Source of the DNA: Candidatus Izemoplasma sp. | GTDB lineage: Bacteria; Bacillota_I; Bacilli_A; Izemoplasmatales; Izemoplasmataceae | Assembly (NCBI GenBank): GCA_007117625.1 | Contig: SKGE01000076.1 | Span: 1-36,634 of the forward strand | Length of the DNA stretch: 36,634 bases | Direction of reading: 5' to 3' | Shown here: piece by piece, positions 416-11,142 of the stretch | Position numbering within the stretch: the first letter of the stretch is position 1 | Layout: each line of letters starts with the position of its first letter | Made by a program: the position numbers and the translations under genes | Notes under the pieces: model-generated | What the model was told of the DNA's origin: nothing | What the model saw: only the letters and a program-made list of their open reading frames with translations | The model's database searches: none

Positions 416-1027
416 ATGCCTAAAAAGACGTTTTTACGATTAAAAGCTTCCAAGCAAACCAGAGTTTATCAGGGATTAATTGATGTTTTTTATGAAAAAG
501 GGTACGAGGCGGTCTCGGTCGCAGACATTGTGAAAGTCTGCGCGATTCCAAGAGGTAGTTTTTACATGTATTTTGAAGATAAGTTTGATGCGTTTATGTA
601 TATTTTGTCACATGCGCAAAAAGATAAGATGATTTATTTAAAGCCGGTCCTTGATAGACTTAATGATCGAGCGTTTATGGATTGTTACATTGATTTGATT
701 AAAGCTGGATTAGCATATGCTAATGAACATCCGAAGTTGGTTGGATTGTGGATGCGATTTTATCGTAGTTCGAGTCATCGATTGAGTCAGCATTGGAGAG
801 TGTTTGAACTTCAGGCGATTGATGTTTTGTCTGAATATTTAAAACAAGATCAGAATCGTGGGCATATTCGCGATGAGGTGGATATTCGATCACTGGCTAA
901 GCTTTTATATCATATACAATCGATTGATATCTTAGAGGCGTATATTGATGGAGAAGCTGAGAATACTATTATCAATAAGGTTGATGCTTATTTAGAAATT
1001 ATTTTGAATGGTATTAAGGAGGCGTAA
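416..1027 (+). CDS. TetR/AcrR family transcriptional repressor
   Basis: This 203-aa protein has a TetR-type N-terminal helix-turn-helix at about residues 15-60 (GYEAVSVADIVKVCAIPRGSFYMYFEDK), with the family hallmark of a small residue before an aromatic pair in the recognition helix and the following YFxxK. The C-terminal ligand domain is not similar to any family I can name. It is the first gene of a four-gene operon with an ABC exporter: the ATPase starts 1 nt after its stop. A palindromic operator lies in its own promoter, so it is probably an autorepressor that derepresses the exporter when a toxic ligand binds. The start has a TGAGGTGG ribosome binding site. The ligand cannot be told from sequence. 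Confidence 0.9.
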   Translation: MPKKTFLRLKASKQTRVYQGLIDVFYEKGYEAVSVADIVKVCAIPRGSFYMYFEDKFDAFMYILSHAQKDKMIYLKPVLDRLNDRAFMDCYIDLIKAGLAYANEHPKLVGLWMRFYRSSSHRLSQHWRVFELQAIDVLSEYLKQDQNRGHIRDEVDIRSLAKLLYHIQSIDILEAYIDGEAENTIINKVDAYLEIILNGIKEA

Positions 1028-1028
1028 G

Positions 1029-1895
1029 ATGGCTAAAAAAGTGTTTGAAGTAAAAGATTTACGGTTTCGGTACGCTAAAAGTAATGTTGAAGCGGTTCGG
1101 GGAATTTCATTTGATGTTTACGAAGGTGAAATTTTTGGGTTACTTGGTCCGAGTGGTGCTGGCAAGAGTACAACTCAGAAAATTATGACAAAGTTATTTC
1201 GAGATTACCAAGGGGAAATTCTTTATTATGGAAAAGATTTAAAAAACTACTCTAATGCCTATTATGAAGATTTAGGAGTAGGTTTTGAACTTCCGGTACA
1301 TTTTTCTAAGTTGACCGGCTATGAGAATATGCATTTTTTTAGCCAGTTGTATCAGCAAAGAGCAGATATTGATGATTTGTTAAATCAAGTTGGATTGCTG
1401 GAAGATAAGGACCGTATGGTGGGTGAATATAGTAAGGGAATGAAGATGCGGTTAAACTTTGTGAGAGCGTTGCTTAACCATCCGAAAGTATTATTTTTAG
1501 ATGAGGTTACGAATGGTCTTGATCCGAAAAATGCTCGGATTATCAAAGACTTGATTCAAGCGTTTAAAGAAGCTGGCGGAACGGTTTTTTTGACGACCCA
1601 CCTCATGAATGATGTTGAAGAACTCTGTGACCGTGTGGCGTTTATTCGTCAGGGTGAAATTGTTGAAATCGCGACACCGAGATCGCTTAAGCTAAAGTAT
1701 GGCAACCGTGAGGTTCGTGTTGAGTATTTTAATAATGGAAAAACGGAAACGGATGTATATCCATTAGATGACATTGGAACGAACAAAGATTTTTTAAGTC
1801 TAATTAAAGATAAAGAAATAGAGACGATCCATAGTGGTGAAACGTCATTAGATGAGATTTTTATCAAAGTGACTGGAGAAAAAGTCGATGCATAA
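1029..1895 (+). CDS. ABC transporter ATP-binding protein (drug-export type)
   Basis: This 288-aa ATPase energises the exporter formed with the next two permeases. Motifs in order: Walker A GPSGAGKST (40-48), a signature-like YSKGMKMR (134-141) where most families have LSGGQ, Walker B VLFLDE (154-159) followed by the D-loop, and the switch histidine H191. The degenerate signature with 'SKGMKMR' is typical of DrrA/CcmA-type ATPases of the ABC-2 exporter class. The ATG at 1029 was chosen over an in-frame upstream start because AAGGAGG lies at 1016-1022. The last ~70 residues after the core are an accessory C-terminal region common in this class. It overlaps the next gene by 8 nt, indicating translational coupling. 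The substrate is unknown; the related two-permease systems are often annotated as fluoroquinolone exporters, which I would not transfer without evidence. Confidence 0.92.
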   Translation: MAKKVFEVKDLRFRYAKSNVEAVRGISFDVYEGEIFGLLGPSGAGKSTTQKIMTKLFRDYQGEILYYGKDLKNYSNAYYEDLGVGFELPVHFSKLTGYENMHFFSQLYQQRADIDDLLNQVGLLEDKDRMVGEYSKGMKMRLNFVRALLNHPKVLFLDEVTNGLDPKNARIIKDLIQAFKEAGGTVFLTTHLMNDVEELCDRVAFIRQGEIVEIATPRSLKLKYGNREVRVEYFNNGKTETDVYPLDDIGTNKDFLSLIKDKEIETIHSGETSLDEIFIKVTGEKVDA

Positions 1896-2607
1896 CTTCG
1901 GAGTTTTGTTAAGAGGAGAAATGCAACGATTGGTGCGTTATAAGATTTTACAAATTAGTTTTGTTGTGTCACTGCTGTGGTTAGGCATATTGTTTTTGAT
2001 TGGATCGGATCATGTTGCAGACTTTGTGCCGCTATTTATATTTATTGATGTTTCGATGATGACGGTGTTGTTGGTTGGAGCCAATTTATTTTTTGAAAAA
2101 CAAGAAAACACTTTAAAAACGTTGTTGATAACACCCTCGGATTTTGTTGCACTGTTAGCAAGTAAGTTTGTTTCATCGCTTTATTTAGGGTTACAGTCGA
2201 CTGTGGTCATTGCTTTGTTTGCGGTACTTATGTTTGATGTATCGATTGCGGTTCTTTGGTTGATTGTGTTTGTTTTATTAATTACATGTGTCCATACTGC
2301 GATAGGGTTTACTTTTGTTGTTTTTGTTAAAGATTTTAATGGATTGTTGGCCTTTACGATATTCTATATGTTTTTGTTTGCGTTTCCTAGCATTTTCTTT
2401 ATGCTAGACCTTTTACCGAGTAGTGCTGAATATTGGTTGATGTTTTCTCCAACACACGCAGGGATGTTAATGATTAACTATACGTTTGGAGAAGATGTGG
2501 CTTGGTGGTTGCTGTTGCTCGGTGCTCTATATTTAGTTGTTTTGTCAGCTGTGTTAATACGGTTTGTGATTTCTCCAAAGTATGTGGAAACGGCTGTGAG
2601 GGAGTGA
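1888..2607 (+). CDS. ABC-2 type exporter permease, subunit 1
   Basis: This 239-aa integral membrane protein has about six hydrophobic segments (roughly residues 22-40, 48-66, 90-112, 120-145, 155-175 and 203-228) and the ABC-2 feature of a conserved cytosolic stretch after the second segment (FFEKQENTLKTLLITP), as in permeases of two-subunit drug exporters. It overlaps the ATPase gene by 8 nt and precedes the second permease by 4 nt, so the three are one operon. The likely complex is one ATPase dimer with a heterodimer of the two permeases. The substrate cannot be inferred. Confidence 0.85.
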   Translation: MHNFGVLLRGEMQRLVRYKILQISFVVSLLWLGILFLIGSDHVADFVPLFIFIDVSMMTVLLVGANLFFEKQENTLKTLLITPSDFVALLASKFVSSLYLGLQSTVVIALFAVLMFDVSIAVLWLIVFVLLITCVHTAIGFTFVVFVKDFNGLLAFTIFYMFLFAFPSIFFMLDLLPSSAEYWLMFSPTHAGMLMINYTFGEDVAWWLLLLGALYLVVLSAVLIRFVISPKYVETAVRE

Positions 2608-2611
2608 TGGT

Positions 2612-3400
2612 ATGCGTAAATACATAAAACTTTTAAAATATGAGCTTAAAAACTTAATTCGCGATAAGATGACGCTTGTGATGTTAGTCTATCCATTGAT
2701 GTTGATGTTGGTAGGTGCGTTTGTGATTCCTACTGTTGTTGATCAGTTTGGTGAAGGTGGTGAAGGTCAGCGTATAGCATCTTTGGTGATTATTGTGGTT
2801 TTTGCAGCAATTGCCCCTTTTATTGGAAGTGCATTGTTAGGGTTTAGTCTATTAGACAACCGTGATGAGAATACCCTTGATACAATTCGTGTCACACCAA
2901 TATCTTTAAGAGGTTATATTACCTTTAAATGCATCTACGCATATATATTAGGAGCCAACGGAACATTTTGGATTATTTATGGGACGCGACTTTTAGCAGG
3001 TGATGGCTATACTGTTGGTGGCATGGATTTATTTGAACCGTTCACTGTTGGTGTTGTACTTACATATGCACTCACAGCCAGTTTGTTTATTCCAGTTTTT
3101 GCATTGCTTTTATCAGCGTTTGCAAAAAATAAGATAGAAGGTTTTGCTTATATGAAAGGATCGGGAATGATTATTATGTTACCGGTACTAACCATTTTAA
3201 ATGCATTACAAGACTGGAAACAGTATTTTCTAGGAGTGATGCCAACGTTTTGGCCAATCAAAGGCATGTTGGTTCAAACAGGATTGCTTGAACACTCAGA
3301 CAATTTGCCTTATATAGGATATATAATCGTTGGTGTGATGTATAAAATAGTGTTAATTATCTTAATGTATAAAGTTTTCGAAAAAAAAGTTCAAAACTAA
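2612..3400 (+). CDS. ABC-2 type exporter permease, subunit 2
   Basis: This 262-aa membrane protein is the partner of the preceding permease: it has the same layout of about six membrane spans and the matching cytosolic motif after the second span (LLDNRDENTLDTIRVTP, compare EKQENTLKTLLITP in subunit 1). The shared ENTL-x2-(I/L)-x2-TP segment suggests the two permeases are ancient paralogues that form a heterodimer. It is the last gene of the operon; a strong terminator follows within 10 nt. Its partner ATPase is the gene at 1029-1895. Confidence 0.85.
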   Translation: MRKYIKLLKYELKNLIRDKMTLVMLVYPLMLMLVGAFVIPTVVDQFGEGGEGQRIASLVIIVVFAAIAPFIGSALLGFSLLDNRDENTLDTIRVTPISLRGYITFKCIYAYILGANGTFWIIYGTRLLAGDGYTVGGMDLFEPFTVGVVLTYALTASLFIPVFALLLSAFAKNKIEGFAYMKGSGMIIMLPVLTILNALQDWKQYFLGVMPTFWPIKGMLVQTGLLEHSDNLPYIGYIIVGVMYKIVLIILMYKVFEKKVQN

Positions 3401-3408
3401 GTCATTTC

Positions 3409-3437
3409 AAAAAGAGGCTAAAAACAGCCTCTTTTTT
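3409..3437 (+). terminator. Rho-independent terminator of the ABC exporter operon
   Basis: The arms AAAAAGAGGCT (3409-3419) and AGCCTCTTTTTT (3426-3437) are complementary around a 6-base loop, and the T-tract is part of the right arm. Confidence 0.92.
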
Positions 3438-3509
3438 ATTGTTGTATCCTATAAATTAAACCATAAATTAAAAATATTAAAAAAAAGATTAAAAAAATTA
3501 ATTTTATTG

Positions 3510-3538
3510 TTGACATTAATTATTTTATGGTATATTAT
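3510..3538 (+). promoter_or_regulatory. Strong vegetative promoter of the microprotein operon
   Basis: A perfect TTGACA (3510-3515), a 17-bp spacer and TATTAT (3533-3538) lie in a very A/T-rich stretch. The predicted start near 3545 leaves an untranslated leader of about 70 nt before the first small ORF. The 3438-3509 stretch before it has no gene and looks like an A/T-rich UP-element-type region. Confidence 0.8.
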
Positions 3539-3613
3539 GAAGTTGTAATCAAGTTAGTTAATCTAAAAATTAATAAAATCAATATTAACATTAATAAAGT
3601 GAAGGTGTTTTAA

Positions 3614-3709
3614 ATGAAAGGAAAAAATTATGGATTTTACAAGCATTCAAGTTCTAAAGAATCATTCGTATCAAAAATTAAACTAAGTAAAAGTACGATC
3701 AACCGATAG
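3614..3709 (+). CDS. Small ORF 1 of the microprotein array, 31 aa, unknown
   Basis: The 31-codon frame begins at ATG after GAAGGTG (3601-3607) at 6-nt spacing and encodes a basic, Ser/Lys-rich peptide (MKGKNYGFYKHSSSKESF...). It does not share the EMxxTYE motif of the four frames that follow, so it may be a different microprotein or a leader peptide for the operon. It has no signal peptide or membrane segment. I recognise no family. Support for real translation is its ribosome binding site and its place right after a strong promoter. Confidence 0.5.
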   Translation: MKGKNYGFYKHSSSKESFVSKIKLSKSTINR

Positions 3710-3738
3710 TCCTAAAAGAAGCAGCTTAGCCTTACTTA

Positions 3739-3758
3739 GGTACTTCGGGGATAGTACC
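3739..3758 (+). other. Hairpin between small ORFs 1 and 2
   Basis: GGTACT (3739-3744) and AGTACC (3753-3758) pair around an 8-base G-rich loop (TCGGGGAT). An A-run and AGAAGGAGG follow, not T, so it is not an intrinsic terminator on this strand. It could be an mRNA-processing or stabilising element, or could modulate translation of ORF 2, whose ribosome binding site starts 7 nt downstream. Confidence 0.5.
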
Positions 3759-3780
3759 AAAAAAAGAAGGAGGCGTTAAA

Positions 3781-3882
3781 ATGAGTAGTTATGAAATGTT
3801 AATGACTTATGAAGTGCAAAAATCAAAATCATCTGAAGATAGACGTCAAGAAAAGCGTACTAGCCACAAATATTTATATTAA
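3781..3882 (+). CDS. Small ORF 2, microprotein of the EMxxTYE group, 33 aa
   Basis: The ATG follows AGAAGGAGG (3765-3773) at 7-nt spacing. The peptide starts MSSYEMLMTYEVQKSK and continues with a charged Arg/Lys/Glu-rich tail. Residues 4-16 align without gaps to small ORFs 3, 4 and 5 (E-M-x-x-T-Y-E-x-x-K-x-K). It has no membrane segment and no cysteines. It is unrecognised, but the repeated motif with synonymous codon differences between copies argues for selection on the peptide. Confidence 0.6.
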   Translation: MSSYEMLMTYEVQKSKSSEDRRQEKRTSHKYLY

Positions 3883-3901
3883 AAATAAAGGAGGCGACAT
3901 C

Positions 3902-3985
3902 ATGATGACCAATGAAATGATCGCAACTTACGAAAGTGTAAAAAACAAATTTAAATCAATCGATAAAAGACAAAAACGTATTTAA
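3902..3985 (+). CDS. Small ORF 3, microprotein of the EMxxTYE group, 27 aa
   Basis: The ATG at 3902 follows AAAGGAGG (ending 3894) at 7-nt spacing; the second in-frame ATG at 3905 would be 10 nt away. The peptide (MMTNEMIATYESVKNKFK...) carries the E-M-x-x-T-Y-E-x-x-K-x-K motif and ends in a basic tail, DKRQKRI. It starts 19 nt after small ORF 2. The function is unknown. Confidence 0.6.
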   Translation: MMTNEMIATYESVKNKFKSIDKRQKRI

Positions 3986-4002
3986 TAAAAAGGAGTGATC
4001 GG

Positions 4003-4128
4003 ATGAACGGTTACGAATATATTATGAGTTTTCATACCACAACGAACAAAATTGTTTTACTTAAAGAAGCTTACGGTAATAGGCCTTTGAATAATACATT
4101 GTGTGAATCTAAGGAAAAAGGAGAATAG
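4003..4128 (+). CDS. Small ORF 4, divergent member of the array, 41 aa
   Basis: The ATG follows AAGGAGTGATC (about 3990-4000). The N-terminus, MNGYEYIMSFHTTTNK, is a diverged version of the motif in its neighbours (EY for EM, SF for TY, N-K kept), and the C-terminal half is unlike the others. Its last codons contain the ribosome binding site for small ORF 5, which starts 2 nt after its stop, so the two are translationally linked. No family is recognised. Confidence 0.5.
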   Translation: MNGYEYIMSFHTTTNKIVLLKEAYGNRPLNNTLCESKEKGE

Positions 4129-4130
4129 CG

Positions 4131-4202
4131 ATGAACACTGAAATGATGATGACGTATGAAATGATTAAATCTAAGTTAGAAACAAAAAGAGTCAAACGTT
4201 AA
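4131..4202 (+). CDS. Small ORF 5, microprotein of the EMxxTYE group, 23 aa
   Basis: The 23-residue peptide, MNTEMMMTYEMIKSKLETKR followed by VKR, is almost nothing but the shared motif plus a basic tail, and so defines the core of the group. The ribosome binding site AAAAAGGAGA lies inside the end of small ORF 4. The next gene, a SHOCT-like protein, starts about 73 nt downstream with no terminator between. The function is unknown. Confidence 0.6.
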   Translation: MNTEMMMTYEMIKSKLETKRVKR

Positions 4203-4275
4203 TATTGATTTTGGATTTAAAAAATAAAATTATTAAATTCAAAGAGTATAACTAAAAAATATAGGAGGAATTATG

Positions 4276-4614
4276 ATGAAAGAAAAGTTAGCGATATTAG
4301 ATCAACTTGAAAACAAAGAGATTACGGCGGAAGAAGCAGAAAGAAAACTTGCTGAATTAAGAGGAACATTAAAAGCTTCAAAAGGTAAGACGATTAAAGT
4401 TTTTATCAAAAGTAATGATGGTGATGTTGTGAATGTTTCAGTACCACTTCAATTAGCGAAATTTTTGTCAAAAGGCAGTGCACACTTTTCTAAAGGGAAA
4501 CTTGATAATGTTGATTTTAAAGAAATTATTGAGTATGCTGAAAGAGGAGACATTGGGGAGCTTGTTAATATTGAGAGCGCTGATGGCGATATCGTTAAAG
4601 TTTACGTTGAATAG
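4276..4614 (+). CDS. SHOCT-like / YvlB-LiaX N-terminal-type small protein
   Basis: This 112-aa cytoplasmic protein begins with the short helical hairpin seen at the N-terminus of YvlB/LiaX-type proteins (KLAILDQLENKEITAEEAERKLAEL, residues ~4-28), in which the sequence G/N-x-I-T-x-E-E-A is the hallmark. The rest (residues ~40-112) is the compact region seen in stand-alone SHOCT-like proteins of Bacillota: IKVFIKSNDGDVVNVSVPL and the matching strand IESADGDIVKVYVE at the end. YvlB and LiaX belong to cell-envelope stress operons, so an envelope-stress role is possible but is inference. AGGAGG (4263-4268) is 7 nt from ATG 4276 and only 4 nt from ATG 4273, so 4276 is preferred. It closes the microprotein operon. 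Confidence 0.75.
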   Translation: MKEKLAILDQLENKEITAEEAERKLAELRGTLKASKGKTIKVFIKSNDGDVVNVSVPLQLAKFLSKGSAHFSKGKLDNVDFKEIIEYAERGDIGELVNIESADGDIVKVYVE

Positions 4615-4640
4615 AACCAGGAACTTGGTTCTATTTTTTT
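4611..4640 (+). terminator. Rho-independent terminator of the microprotein/SHOCT operon
   Basis: ATAGAACCA (4611-4619) and TGGTTCTAT (4626-4634) pair perfectly, followed by T to 4640. The left arm includes the stop codon of the SHOCT-like gene. Confidence 0.92.
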
Positions 4641-4724: not shown

Positions 4725-5915
4725 ATGAAATCGATACGTGAGTTGTACAAAATTGGTCGTGGTCCATCGAGTTCTCACACAATGGGTCCTGCGAAGGCTT
4801 GTCAAGTCTTCATGAAGCGCCATGATGCCGATCACTATCGAGTTATTTTATATGGTTCTTTAAGTTTGACAGGAAAAGGGCATTTGACAGATCAAGTCAT
4901 TAAAGAAACACTTAAAAATGTCGATGTGATTTTTAGCAGTGATTTTATCGAAGACCATCCGAATACGATGGATTTAATTGCATATAAAAACCAACAAGAA
5001 GTTGGTAGATCAAGGGTATATAGTATTGGTGGTGGAACGATTCGCTTTGAAGGTGAAACTTTTGAAGAAACCGAGCATGTATACCCCCATCAAACCTTTC
5101 ATGAAATAAAGACATACTGTTTGAAAGAAAAGATTGGGTTGCCCGAGTATGTGATGCGTTTTGAAGACTGTGATATAGAAGCGTTTTTGGAGACGGTTTG
5201 GGAAGCTATGCAGCATTCAATTGAGGATGGATTATCACGAGATGGAGTTTTGCCAGGAGCTTTAAAGGTTGAGCGCAAGGCGAGACATTTGTTTATCAAT
5301 AAGATGAAAAATGAACCGAGTGAGATCTTTGAAAATCGTATGGTGAGTTCTTTTGCGTTTGCTGTGAATGAAACGAATGCGAGTGGTGGCTTTGTGGTCA
5401 CTGCACCCACGTGTGGAGCAAGTGGAACGGTTCCAGCGGTACTGAAATATATGCAAGACCGTCACCGATTAAGTAAAAGTCGAATGATTCGTGCTTTGAT
5501 GACTGCAGGGATTATTGGGAATATCATTAAGCATAATGCTTCAATTAGTGGTGCTGAAGCTGGGTGTCAAGCCGAGGTTGGAAGTGCTTGTAGTATGGCT
5601 GCGGCAGCGCATGCGCAACTGTTTAATTTAACGATTCATCAGATTGAGTATGCAGCTGAAATTGCGCTTGAACATCATTTAGGTTTGACGTGTGATCCGA
5701 TTTTGGGCTACGTTCAAATTCCTTGTATTGAGCGAAATGCTGTAGCAGCGTTGCGTGCGATTGATGCTTGTGGACTGGCTTATTTTTTAAGCGATTCTAG
5801 AAAGATAGATTTTGATACAGTTGTCGAAACGATGTTTGAAACCGGAAAAGATATGCCCGCGAATTATCGTGAAACAAGCTGTGGAGGCCTTGCAAAGCGC
5901 TATAAGGTTGAGTGA
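4725..5915 (+). CDS. sdaA: L-serine dehydratase (L-serine ammonia-lyase), single-chain iron-sulfur type
   Basis: It converts L-serine to pyruvate and ammonia with a [4Fe-4S] cluster. The 396-aa chain joins the beta-type domain (residues ~1-135; SSSHTMGP near residue 20) with the alpha-type catalytic domain (~150-396), as in single-chain enzymes, whereas Bacillus has two subunits. Candidate cluster cysteines are C281, C323 and C334; their 42- and 11-residue spacing matches the Cys triad of characterised bacterial enzymes. Other conserved stretches are TAPTCGASGTVPAV and CDPILGYVQIPC. ATG 4725 was chosen because TTGGAGG precedes it by 4 nt; an upstream ATG at 4698 has no ribosome binding site. 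The TGA stop overlaps a GTG that could start the next gene. It suggests serine catabolism for pyruvate. Confidence 0.95.
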   Translation: MKSIRELYKIGRGPSSSHTMGPAKACQVFMKRHDADHYRVILYGSLSLTGKGHLTDQVIKETLKNVDVIFSSDFIEDHPNTMDLIAYKNQQEVGRSRVYSIGGGTIRFEGETFEETEHVYPHQTFHEIKTYCLKEKIGLPEYVMRFEDCDIEAFLETVWEAMQHSIEDGLSRDGVLPGALKVERKARHLFINKMKNEPSEIFENRMVSSFAFAVNETNASGGFVVTAPTCGASGTVPAVLKYMQDRHRLSKSRMIRALMTAGIIGNIIKHNASISGAEAGCQAEVGSACSMAAAAHAQLFNLTIHQIEYAAEIALEHHLGLTCDPILGYVQIPCIERNAVAALRAIDACGLAYFLSDSRKIDFDTVVETMFETGKDMPANYRETSCGGLAKRYKVE

Positions 5916-7285
5916 TAGGAAGAGAGTTGATTAATTTGGTTGAAAAGAATGGTTATTATGAGGTAGAATTCACTGACTTAACCCATGATGCAATGGGAGT
6001 GTGCAAAGTCGATGATTTTCCGATTTTTGTTAAGGAGGCTTTAAAAGGAGAAAAAGCTTTAATCAAGGTTATTAAGCTGAATAAGAATTTCGGCTTTGGT
6101 CGTTTGATTGAGCTCTTTTTAGAGTCGCCATTTAGAAAGGTGCCAATATGTGAACATTATCAAGCTTGCGGTGGGTGTAATACGATGCATATGAATTATC
6201 AAACCCAGCTTGATTTCAAGAAATATAGAACGGTTGAAACACTGCGTAAATTAGGTAGAATTGAAACGGTTGTACAAGATACGCAAGGGATGAATAACCC
6301 TTATTATTATCGCAATAAGGCGATTATTCCTTTTGGGAAACACAATGGAAAAATCATCGGAGGTCTCTATCGATCACGCTCGCATGAGATTGTCAATATT
6401 AAGCGATGTCATATCTTTCCTAAAGTTGTAAGTGATATGGTACGATTCTTTCGGTCTTTGTTTACGGAGTTAGATGTTTCGATTTATGATGAGGCAACCC
6501 ATGAAGGTTTAGTTCGAGGCCTTATGTTTAGGCATAGTCGTGATCAGTCTCAGTTTAGTGTAACGATTATTACCACATCTGGACGTTTCCCAGATAAAGA
6601 GCGTATTGTCAATAGCTTGATTGGTAAGTTTCCTATTGTTGTATCGGTGATTCAAAATATTAACCCAGAACAAACCAATGTGATGCTTGGTGCAAAGTCT
6701 AAAGTACTTTATGGAAAAGATGTTATTGAAGATAATCTATTAGGTATTAATTACGAGATATCACATCAGTCATTTTATCAAGTTAATCCAGAACAAACCG
6801 AAGGACTCTACAAAAAGGCCATGGATTATGCTAAAATCCAACCAGAAGATGTGGTGGTTGATGCCTACTGTGGTATTGGAACCATCGGTTTAACAGCTTC
6901 TGCTTATGCTGGTGAAGTTATTGGTATTGAGGTTGTTAAAGAGGCGATTAAAAATGCTCAACAAAACGCAAAAAACAATCATGTTAAGAATATCCGTTTT
7001 ATAACGGGTAAAGTTGAAGATATATTGCCAACATTAAAGCAGCGTGTTGATGTATTGTTTATTGACCCACCGCGTAAAGGTGTGGACAAAAAGGTTTTAG
7101 AAAGCATTATTAAATCAAAAGTGAAACGTGTTGTCTATATTTCATGTAATGTTTCGACCCTTGCGAGAGATTTAAATTTCTTACAGGCGAACCATTATAA
7201 AGTTGTCGAAGTTACACCGTTTGATATGTTTCCGCAGACAGCACATATTGAGACGGTTACGCTTATTGAAAGACTTGAAAGTTAG
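5912..7285 (+). CDS. rlmD: RlmD/TrmA-family RNA uracil-C5 methyltransferase, paralogue 1
   Basis: A SAM-dependent m5U methyltransferase of about 457 aa, most likely acting on 23S rRNA. An N-terminal TRAM domain (~12-70) is followed by iron-sulfur cysteines C80, C86 and C89 (CEHYQACGGC) with a fourth in IKRCHIF, then the central RNA-binding region and the Rossmann domain (VVDAYCGIGTIGL; DPPRKGVD). The nucleophile is in YISCNVSTLARDL, so all catalytic elements are present. The GTG at 5912 overlaps the sdaA stop; an in-frame TTG at 5927 after AGGAAGAGAG is a credible alternative start. A second complete paralogue lies at 9775-11142; in Bacillus one enzyme (RlmCD) modifies U747 and U1939, so the pair may divide the sites. 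This division is inference. Confidence 0.92.
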   Translation: MIGRELINLVEKNGYYEVEFTDLTHDAMGVCKVDDFPIFVKEALKGEKALIKVIKLNKNFGFGRLIELFLESPFRKVPICEHYQACGGCNTMHMNYQTQLDFKKYRTVETLRKLGRIETVVQDTQGMNNPYYYRNKAIIPFGKHNGKIIGGLYRSRSHEIVNIKRCHIFPKVVSDMVRFFRSLFTELDVSIYDEATHEGLVRGLMFRHSRDQSQFSVTIITTSGRFPDKERIVNSLIGKFPIVVSVIQNINPEQTNVMLGAKSKVLYGKDVIEDNLLGINYEISHQSFYQVNPEQTEGLYKKAMDYAKIQPEDVVVDAYCGIGTIGLTASAYAGEVIGIEVVKEAIKNAQQNAKNNHVKNIRFITGKVEDILPTLKQRVDVLFIDPPRKGVDKKVLESIIKSKVKRVVYISCNVSTLARDLNFLQANHYKVVEVTPFDMFPQTAHIETVTLIERLES

Positions 7286-9747: not shown

Positions 9748-9774
9748 AAATGGTAGAAAGAAATGTGGTGTGTT

Positions 9775-11142
9775 ATGAAAACTGAATTAGTTAAGAATCA
9801 AGAGGTACTGATTACCATTAAAAAGATAGGTATCAATGGGGAAGGGATTGGCTATTACAAGCGACAAGCTGTTTTTGTGGATGGTGTTTTTCCTCCTGAA
9901 GAGGTTGTCGTTAAAATTCAATCGATTCATCGAGGGTATGCGGTAGCGAAAGCGATTCATTTGAAAAAACGTGCGTTTTATCGCGATCGACCATTTTGTA
10001 AACATTATGATGTTTGCGGTGGGTGTCAGCTTCAGCACGTTAAGTACGATGAGCAATTAAGACTGAAAGAAGATTTACTGAAACAAGCGTTTGATCGTTA
10101 TACGCAGTTGGATTTAAAGAAAATTAAGTTTTATCCATTTACGCCAGTGGTTAAACCGAGAAGTTATCGGTTAAAAGCTCAAATGCCGGTTCGAAATACG
10201 CAGCAAGGTTTAGTCACGGGACTTTATAAGAAAAACTCAACGGATTTGGTTGATGTTTTAGAATGTCCTGTGCAAGACCAAGACATTAACCGTGTCAATC
10301 AGCGTGTTTTAGAACTTTGTGATAAGTACGATATCTATGCGTTTGATCCAAGTGAGATGCGTGGGATGTTGCGATATATTGTGACAAGAAAAAGTTCTTT
10401 CAACGGTGGCATGCAAGTAACGCTGGTTGTGACGATTTATAACAAAGCTTTACATCCTTTGGCGAATGAGATTATGGAGCTTCCTGGAGTCGAAAGTGTT
10501 GCTATCTCTAAAAATCATGATGCTAAAAATCATGCGATATTTGGTGATACGTTTGAGATTTTGGCAGGGAATGATACGATTACTGAGGCGATTGGTGCTG
10601 TGAAGTTTGCGTTAAATCCTAAAGCTTTCTTTCAGCTGAACCCAGAAGAGGCTACTAAAATGTACGATTATGTACGTAGCTTAATGGATCGTAAGACGGA
10701 TAAATCATTGCTAGATGTATATACAGGTAGTGGTGCTATGGCCCTTTATTTTGCCGATCAGTTTGAACGGGTGGTTGGTGTTGATCAAAGTCAGGATTCA
10801 ATTCATAGTGCGAACCAAAATAAAAAACTAAATAAGATTAAAAATGTGCGTTTTTATCAAGGAGATGCACATGATACACTTGCCGATCTTTATAATAAAG
10901 GACTTACTTTTGATGTGTGTGTGTTTGATCCACCGAGATCTGGTCTTGATGATAAAATGATTGATCTTTTAATGCGAAAACCAATACCAAAGTTAATATA
11001 TGTTTCTTGTAATCCGAGTACTTTGGCAAAAAATATTAAGAAATTGAGTCGAAAGTATGAGGTGAAATCGGTGATGCCGTTTGATATGTTTCCACAAACT
11101 AGTCATGTCGAGAGTGTCGTTTTACTAGTCCGTAAAGGGTAA
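9775..11142 (+). CDS. rlmD: RlmD/TrmA-family RNA uracil-C5 methyltransferase, paralogue 2
   Basis: A second full-length (about 455 aa) SAM-dependent RNA m5U methyltransferase, clearly homologous to the protein at 5912-7285. It has an N-terminal TRAM domain (VLITIKKIGINGEGIGYY...), iron-sulfur cysteines in CKHYDVCGGC and a fourth in VLECPVQ, a SAM loop LLDVYTGSGAMAL, FDPPRSGLDD and the catalytic YVSCNPSTLAKNI. All catalytic elements are intact, so this is not a decaying copy. The ATG at 9775 gives the MKTELVKNQ start expected just before the TRAM domain; the in-frame ATG at 9763 would add four residues, and neither has a strong ribosome binding site. Which uracil each paralogue methylates is unknown. 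A bidirectional terminator follows. Confidence 0.92.
   Translation: MKTELVKNQEVLITIKKIGINGEGIGYYKRQAVFVDGVFPPEEVVVKIQSIHRGYAVAKAIHLKKRAFYRDRPFCKHYDVCGGCQLQHVKYDEQLRLKEDLLKQAFDRYTQLDLKKIKFYPFTPVVKPRSYRLKAQMPVRNTQQGLVTGLYKKNSTDLVDVLECPVQDQDINRVNQRVLELCDKYDIYAFDPSEMRGMLRYIVTRKSSFNGGMQVTLVVTIYNKALHPLANEIMELPGVESVAISKNHDAKNHAIFGDTFEILAGNDTITEAIGAVKFALNPKAFFQLNPEEATKMYDYVRSLMDRKTDKSLLDVYTGSGAMALYFADQFERVVGVDQSQDSIHSANQNKKLNKIKNVRFYQGDAHDTLADLYNKGLTFDVCVFDPPRSGLDDKMIDLLMRKPIPKLIYVSCNPSTLAKNIKKLSRKYEVKSVMPFDMFPQTSHVESVVLLVRKG

Follow-up and report, generated by a model that had tools for sequence, protein, structure and literature searches.

Organization of the locus

Analysis of the window, by which we mean the whole 36,634-nucleotide stretch of Candidatus Izemoplasma sp. 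DNA under study, revealed at positions 3409-4636 a forward-strand locus in which two terminators enclose a near-consensus promoter, five very short ORFs and a gene coding for a SHOCT-like protein. The host family comprises small-genome bacteria of a wall-less lineage. The ABC permease operon upstream closes with an intrinsic terminator (3409-3436), which is followed by an upstream array of putative operator repeats (3455-3502) with ATYAA at 3455, 3467, 3476, 3488 and 3497 (spacing 12/9/12/9, period 21 bp), by the promoter TTGACA-N17-TATTAT (3510-3538) with the conserved GAAGTTGTAATCAA after it, and by a downstream array in the 5' UTR (3548-3594) with ATYAA at 3548, 3569, 3578, 3584 and 3590. 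The five ORFs, of 31, 33, 27, 41 and 23 codons, all lie between the promoter and the SHOCT-like gene. ORF1 (3614-3709, 31 aa) ends in ...STINR, does not carry the TYE motif described below and is 43% identical to its counterpart in locus L002; ORF2 (3781-3882, 33 aa, EMLMTYEVQKSK) has counterparts in loci L002, L005 and L007; ORF3 (3902-3985, 27 aa, NEMIATYESVKNK) starts at 3902 or at the ATG at 3905; ORF4 (4003-4128, 41 aa, YEYIMSFHTTTNK) matches the motif weakly and resembles the ORF at the same position in L002; and ORF5 (4131-4202) encodes the 23-aa TEMMMTYEMIKSK. The SHOCT-like gene (4276-4614, alternative ATG at 4273) encodes a protein of 112 aa with an N-terminal helix pair and a C-terminal alpha/beta part, and the operon closes at an intrinsic terminator (4609-4636).

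The coordinates, codon counts, promoter and two flanking terminators given in an earlier note on this DNA were all recovered, and its proposal of a single operon with the SHOCT-like gene was supported. A ribosome binding site had also been assigned to every ORF; Shine-Dalgarno (SD) matches of 7-8 nt at a distance of 7 nt precede ORFs 2-5, while that of ORF1 is weaker (AGGTG at 6 nt).

Upstream of the array, positions 416-3400 of the window code for a TetR-like regulator, an ABC ATPase and two ABC-2-like permeases, and the position of the permease genes is kept across the family. The ABC-2 transporter was considered as a functional partner and rejected: it adjoins the array in most loci seen and is absent at the stand-alone and DUF2089-linked microORFs described below, so the adjacency is treated as stable synteny.

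Comparison of the 112-aa protein with PF22746 (SHOCT-like_DUF2089-C) gave a match limited to the N-terminus with E=6e-4 and 19.8 bits, below the gathering cut-off of 27. A paralog on contig C33, which is 44% identical to it in a full-length alignment, passes PF22746 with 34.6 bits, and the same model is matched by both the C-terminus of DUF2089 and the N-terminus of the paralogous SHOCT protein. The structure model of the SHOCT protein was poor (pLDDT 65), and searches against the PDB by sequence and, with this low-confidence model, by fold returned no match. In the SHOCT tree, whose resolution long branches limit, the array-linked proteins formed a weakly supported cluster separate from the DUF2089-linked ones. 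The label of YvlB/LiaX-type envelope stress that had been attached to the protein needs rewording: the lineage is wall-less, a Pfam scan of the protein detected no Toastrack domain, and the DUF2089 operon has a relative of it as third gene. The SHOCT domain itself (PMC3581485) is likewise a short bi-helical domain; here it is present as the N-terminal SHOCT-like variant PF22746.

Coding capacity, conservation and composition of the microproteins

Four SD-led ORFs of 20-60 codons were observed at the locus, against a mean of 0.04 in dinucleotide shuffles (maximum 2 in 400), and none on the reverse strand; the 763 bp holding four or five ORFs with strong ribosome binding sites are thus far above the chance expectation. 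In 14 of the 16 loci tested no more than 0.25% of shuffles attained the observed chain of SD-led ORFs, and the reverse strand never did. All 17 interspecies pairs of counterpart microORFs showed pN below pS (pooled pN/pS 0.33, p=2e-34), which indicates that selection acts on the peptide, as had been guessed from the synonymous codons. The substitution pattern is the same kind of signal as that of the SHOCT gene, and ORF1 is the least constrained (pN/pS 0.62). Conservation of the frames and a departure from neutral dN/dS, two points on which the earlier note had made its proposal depend, were both found: the frames are conserved in relatives and the substitutions are purifying. The microORFs are genuine ORFs under purifying selection, with tandem expansion and a common operator and promoter. 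That they are chance ORFs within an AT-rich leader, which their shortness might suggest, is refuted by the shuffle and substitution tests and by their conservation across genera, and we regard its probability as practically negligible.

The same locus was identified in at least nine genera, with 2-6 or more SD-led ORFs of 22-41 codons ahead of a SHOCT-like gene, these counts depending on the SD and length criteria and on genomes most of which are incomplete MAGs. Its synteny is kept in most of the family's genera, with an ABC-2 permease upstream and a serine dehydratase or membrane gene downstream. Near-identical tandem copies occur in loci L005, L006 and L041, those in L005 being recent (e.g. 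MNEAMIRTYEKIKADxxxRKNR). A clade of genera without the array locus carries a single microORF between DUF2089 and SHOCT, a gap that is empty in the genera with the array. Genome G025 has a microORF in this gap (L054). Families f2 and f3 and genus g5 have kept DUF2089, and no microORF was seen in them.

An EMxxTYE motif had been reported in four of the five ORFs; it is clear in ORFs 2, 3 and 5, ORF4 is a poor fit, and the motif is limited to some genera. In an alignment of 24 microproteins from five genera one Tyr is invariant, and the Lys four positions after it is nearly so. The TYExxK motif is carried over only to some genera; what the others have in common is confined to size, polarity, position and regulation. 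When the profile was built on the window's genus alone, it scored above shuffled controls in genera g4, g12 and g15 and on a PadR-linked copy, and most other genera were not recognised; in a genome-wide search that left genera out, the genus-only HMM recovered just its own arrays. Since the genus profile does not transfer to most genera, a single sequence family is not claimed, and common descent of all the arrays is not shown by these sequences. The PadR-linked microORF, with a TYxxIKND motif (MLNLTETLSSTYLHIKNDQLIRNEDKKPRN), lies directly 3' of a gene for a PadR-like regulator in two species (L113:2631-2723 in genome G022; reverse complement 2126-2221 of L115 in genome G007).

The 78 microproteins analysed have hydrophobic, Tyr-rich N-termini and Lys/Arg-rich tails: the N-terminal third is 52% hydrophobic with 4% K/R, the C-terminal third contains 38% K/R, and 15 of them end in Asn-Arg. 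Their mean GRAVY is -1.08 (maximum -0.29), their net charge +2.5 and their Trp content 0.12 per peptide; the earlier description of soluble, basic microproteins is supported. A structure model indicated one helix (residues 3-30, pLDDT 79). An amphipathic membrane helix was considered and rejected, as the hydrophobic moment of the microproteins is no higher than that of shuffles (z -0.37). Pfam and NCBIfam scans of the microproteins returned nothing credible, the SHOCT models included. The statement that no described family matches them is supported for these databases; on the literature side it covers open-access sources, in which absence is not proof of novelty.

A phased operator and a probable DUF2089 regulon

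The promoter is flanked by two arrays of the 21-bp operator ATYAAnAAAATYAAt-N6. Alignment of the promoters showed ATYAA repeats spaced by 9 and 12 bp (period 21), with preferred positions of -64/-55, -43/-34, -22/-13, +38/+47, +59/+68 and +80/+89 from the start of the -35 box. The spacing of 21 was enriched over shuffles with z=37 downstream and z=24 upstream of the promoter, and the window locus shows the phased pattern on both sides (3455-3502 and 3548-3594). In a genome-wide search of 49 family genomes with four half-sites, 31 of 33 exact clusters, by our own count, lay at regulon promoters. Matches at the array loci are circular, because the pattern was taken from them; this does not apply to the DUF2089 operon or to the stand-alone arrays. 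The 31 clusters belong to three promoter classes, namely the array locus, the SHOCT-like/DUF2089/SHOCT operon and stand-alone microprotein operons; the two that fall elsewhere are G013:C5:47737 and G000:C96:17199, of which the second lies within a gene.

The stand-alone operons, which have no SHOCT gene, were found from the operator/promoter search alone. They comprise two ORFs followed by a terminator-like hairpin in L152 (G031:C2), and three and four ORFs in L151 and L182 (G020:C3 and G034:C29). Their presence under the operator indicates that the strict tie of the microproteins is to the DUF2089-type regulon.

DUF2089 consists of a zinc ribbon, an HTH and a SHOCT-like tail. It is single-copy in 44 of the 49 family genomes, and its operon bears the operator wherever examined. 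The operator recurs at the DUF2089 operon in the other two families of the order. In other parts of the class, DUF2089 loci show an enrichment of phased repeats (mean of 4.6 pairs at 16 loci against about 1 in controls), a conservative contrast because some of the control loci were themselves picked by the pattern. Co-regulation of the microprotein loci and the SHOCT/DUF2089 operon is well supported, and the linkage gives strong, if circumstantial, grounds for taking DUF2089 as the likely regulator of this regulon, with a predicted contact to the operator. The phased 21-bp operator bracketing the promoter is new and a candidate DUF2089 operator.

The regulon also includes an MFS_3 exporter, seen at L160:227-1495 (minus strand), L192, L153 and L155. 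It stands alone under the operator in genomes G031, G062 and G028, whereas in the window's own genome it occupies the fourth place in the DUF2089 operon. The first gene of the DUF2089 operon (L160:2265-2726, minus strand) codes for a KRARFIK-type protein that has no Pfam match and is conserved across the class.

Possible roles of the microproteins

We favour, with moderate confidence, the reading that the array locus is one operon of a small DUF2089-controlled regulon that provides a stress-induced burst of microproteins together with the SHOCT-like protein, the regulator, the signal and the docking being our inference. DUF2089 would bind the 21-bp-phased ATYAA-N4-ATYAA units on either side of the promoter and would most simply be a repressor that covers it. 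Membrane-type stress would open the operon and so give a burst of several short helical microproteins plus the SHOCT-like protein. The microproteins would be the product, required in quantity, and copies would for that reason have been added repeatedly in tandem. Their uncharged, Tyr/Leu/Met-rich N-terminal helix may dock on a SHOCT-like helix pair, that of the SHOCT protein and possibly that of DUF2089, and the Lys/Arg tail may contact an acidic surface, for instance that of membrane lipid or of nucleic acid. Repression, the stress signal and the role of the tail are proposals that we infer, and the docking is the weakest step, our own suggestion, to which we give a minority chance. After an oligomerisation test had failed, it was suggested that SHOCT binds a partner other than itself (PMC3581485), and PMC11237479 predicts that SHOCT-like domains anchor membrane-linked complexes.

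The closest rival shares most of this evidence. The microproteins could bind the SHOCT-like tail of DUF2089 and tune its DNA binding as anti-repressors or co-repressors, and would then be regulators of their own regulon rather than effectors. Their position under a DUF2089-type operator, the microORF directly after the DUF2089 gene in one clade and that with the same motif directly after a PadR regulator gene in two species (L113 and L115) are consistent with such feedback, but operator-bearing DUF2089 operons exist in families without any microprotein, and feedback would hardly seem to call for up to six or more copies or for stand-alone arrays; we judge it unlikely. Most likely the microproteins serve the SHOCT/DUF2089 stress regulon as high-dosage effectors or ligands, their binding partner being a prediction.

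Leaderless multi-peptide bacteriocins, or another secreted peptide, which the neighbouring ABC or MFS exporter would pump out with the SHOCT protein as accessory, deserve mention since the clusters for thucin A, bawcin and enterocin DD14 contain DUF2089-family genes (PMC9484092, PMC7332713, PMC10707071). The clusters of thucin A and enterocin DD14 resemble the present locus in that short leaderless peptide genes stand in tandem beside such a gene (single in bawcin), the MFS_3 exporter does belong to the regulon, and ABC-2 genes lie upstream of the array. The peptides of these three clusters are, however, more hydrophobic and accompanied by export and immunity genes, while the microproteins, although cationic, are too hydrophilic (the EntDD14 peptides have GRAVY values of 0.20 and -0.11; PMC7332713), poor in Trp and without excess amphipathicity. 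The ABC operon closes at its own terminator, the SHOCT gene alone precedes that of the array, with no transport or immunity gene in the operon, and synteny in most genera of the family is unlike the sporadic occurrence of bacteriocin islands, which makes a bacteriocin quite improbable. Very unlikely, too, are leader peptides, which would respond to translation and set SHOCT expression through stalling or attenuation. The location of short ORFs ahead of a gene would fit, and basic C-terminal ends such as Asn-Arg could slow ribosomes, but the stand-alone arrays have no gene to control (L152 even closes with its hairpin), RNA structure between ORF1 and ORF2 is not beyond that of shuffles (z -0.1 to -0.4), no Rfam match exceeded the gathering score, and purifying selection runs along the peptides. 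No structured leader RNA that would control the downstream gene was seen.

The locus resembles the SHOCT-like/DUF2089 modules linked to phage-shock-type responses in PMC11237479, in which DUF2089 and a SHOCT-like partner share one operon; microprotein arrays and a phased operator were not found in the passages of it that were consulted. Set against the modules treated there, no Toastrack, PspA or LiaI-LiaF-TM domains were seen at the array locus. These findings point to an undescribed family of very small proteins in a membrane-stress-type response. More tentatively, rapidly evolving, tandemly amplified microproteins of about 30 aa may form a new effector class, the main output of a DUF2089 membrane-stress regulon of wall-less bacteria and putative ligands of SHOCT-like domains; if so, the long puzzling SHOCT-type domain would gain a natural partner. 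The DUF2089 regulator and SHOCT-like domains occur widely and await explanation, and the array locus supplies a candidate DUF2089 operator, a compact regulon and microproteins that may be partners of SHOCT. All of this can be tested in a cultured relative; the first Izemoplasma brought into culture is Xianfuyuplasma coldseepsis zrk13 (PMC8397711). Entire operons of 22-42-aa proteins can also keep their position across a family of bacteria even though the sequences have drifted until they are barely recognisable, which marks a blind spot of homology-based annotation.

Elsewhere in the window, two genes of RNA uracil-methyltransferase type (TrmA/RlmD type, judged by eye) were observed at 5912-7285 and 9763-11142, 2.5 kb apart.
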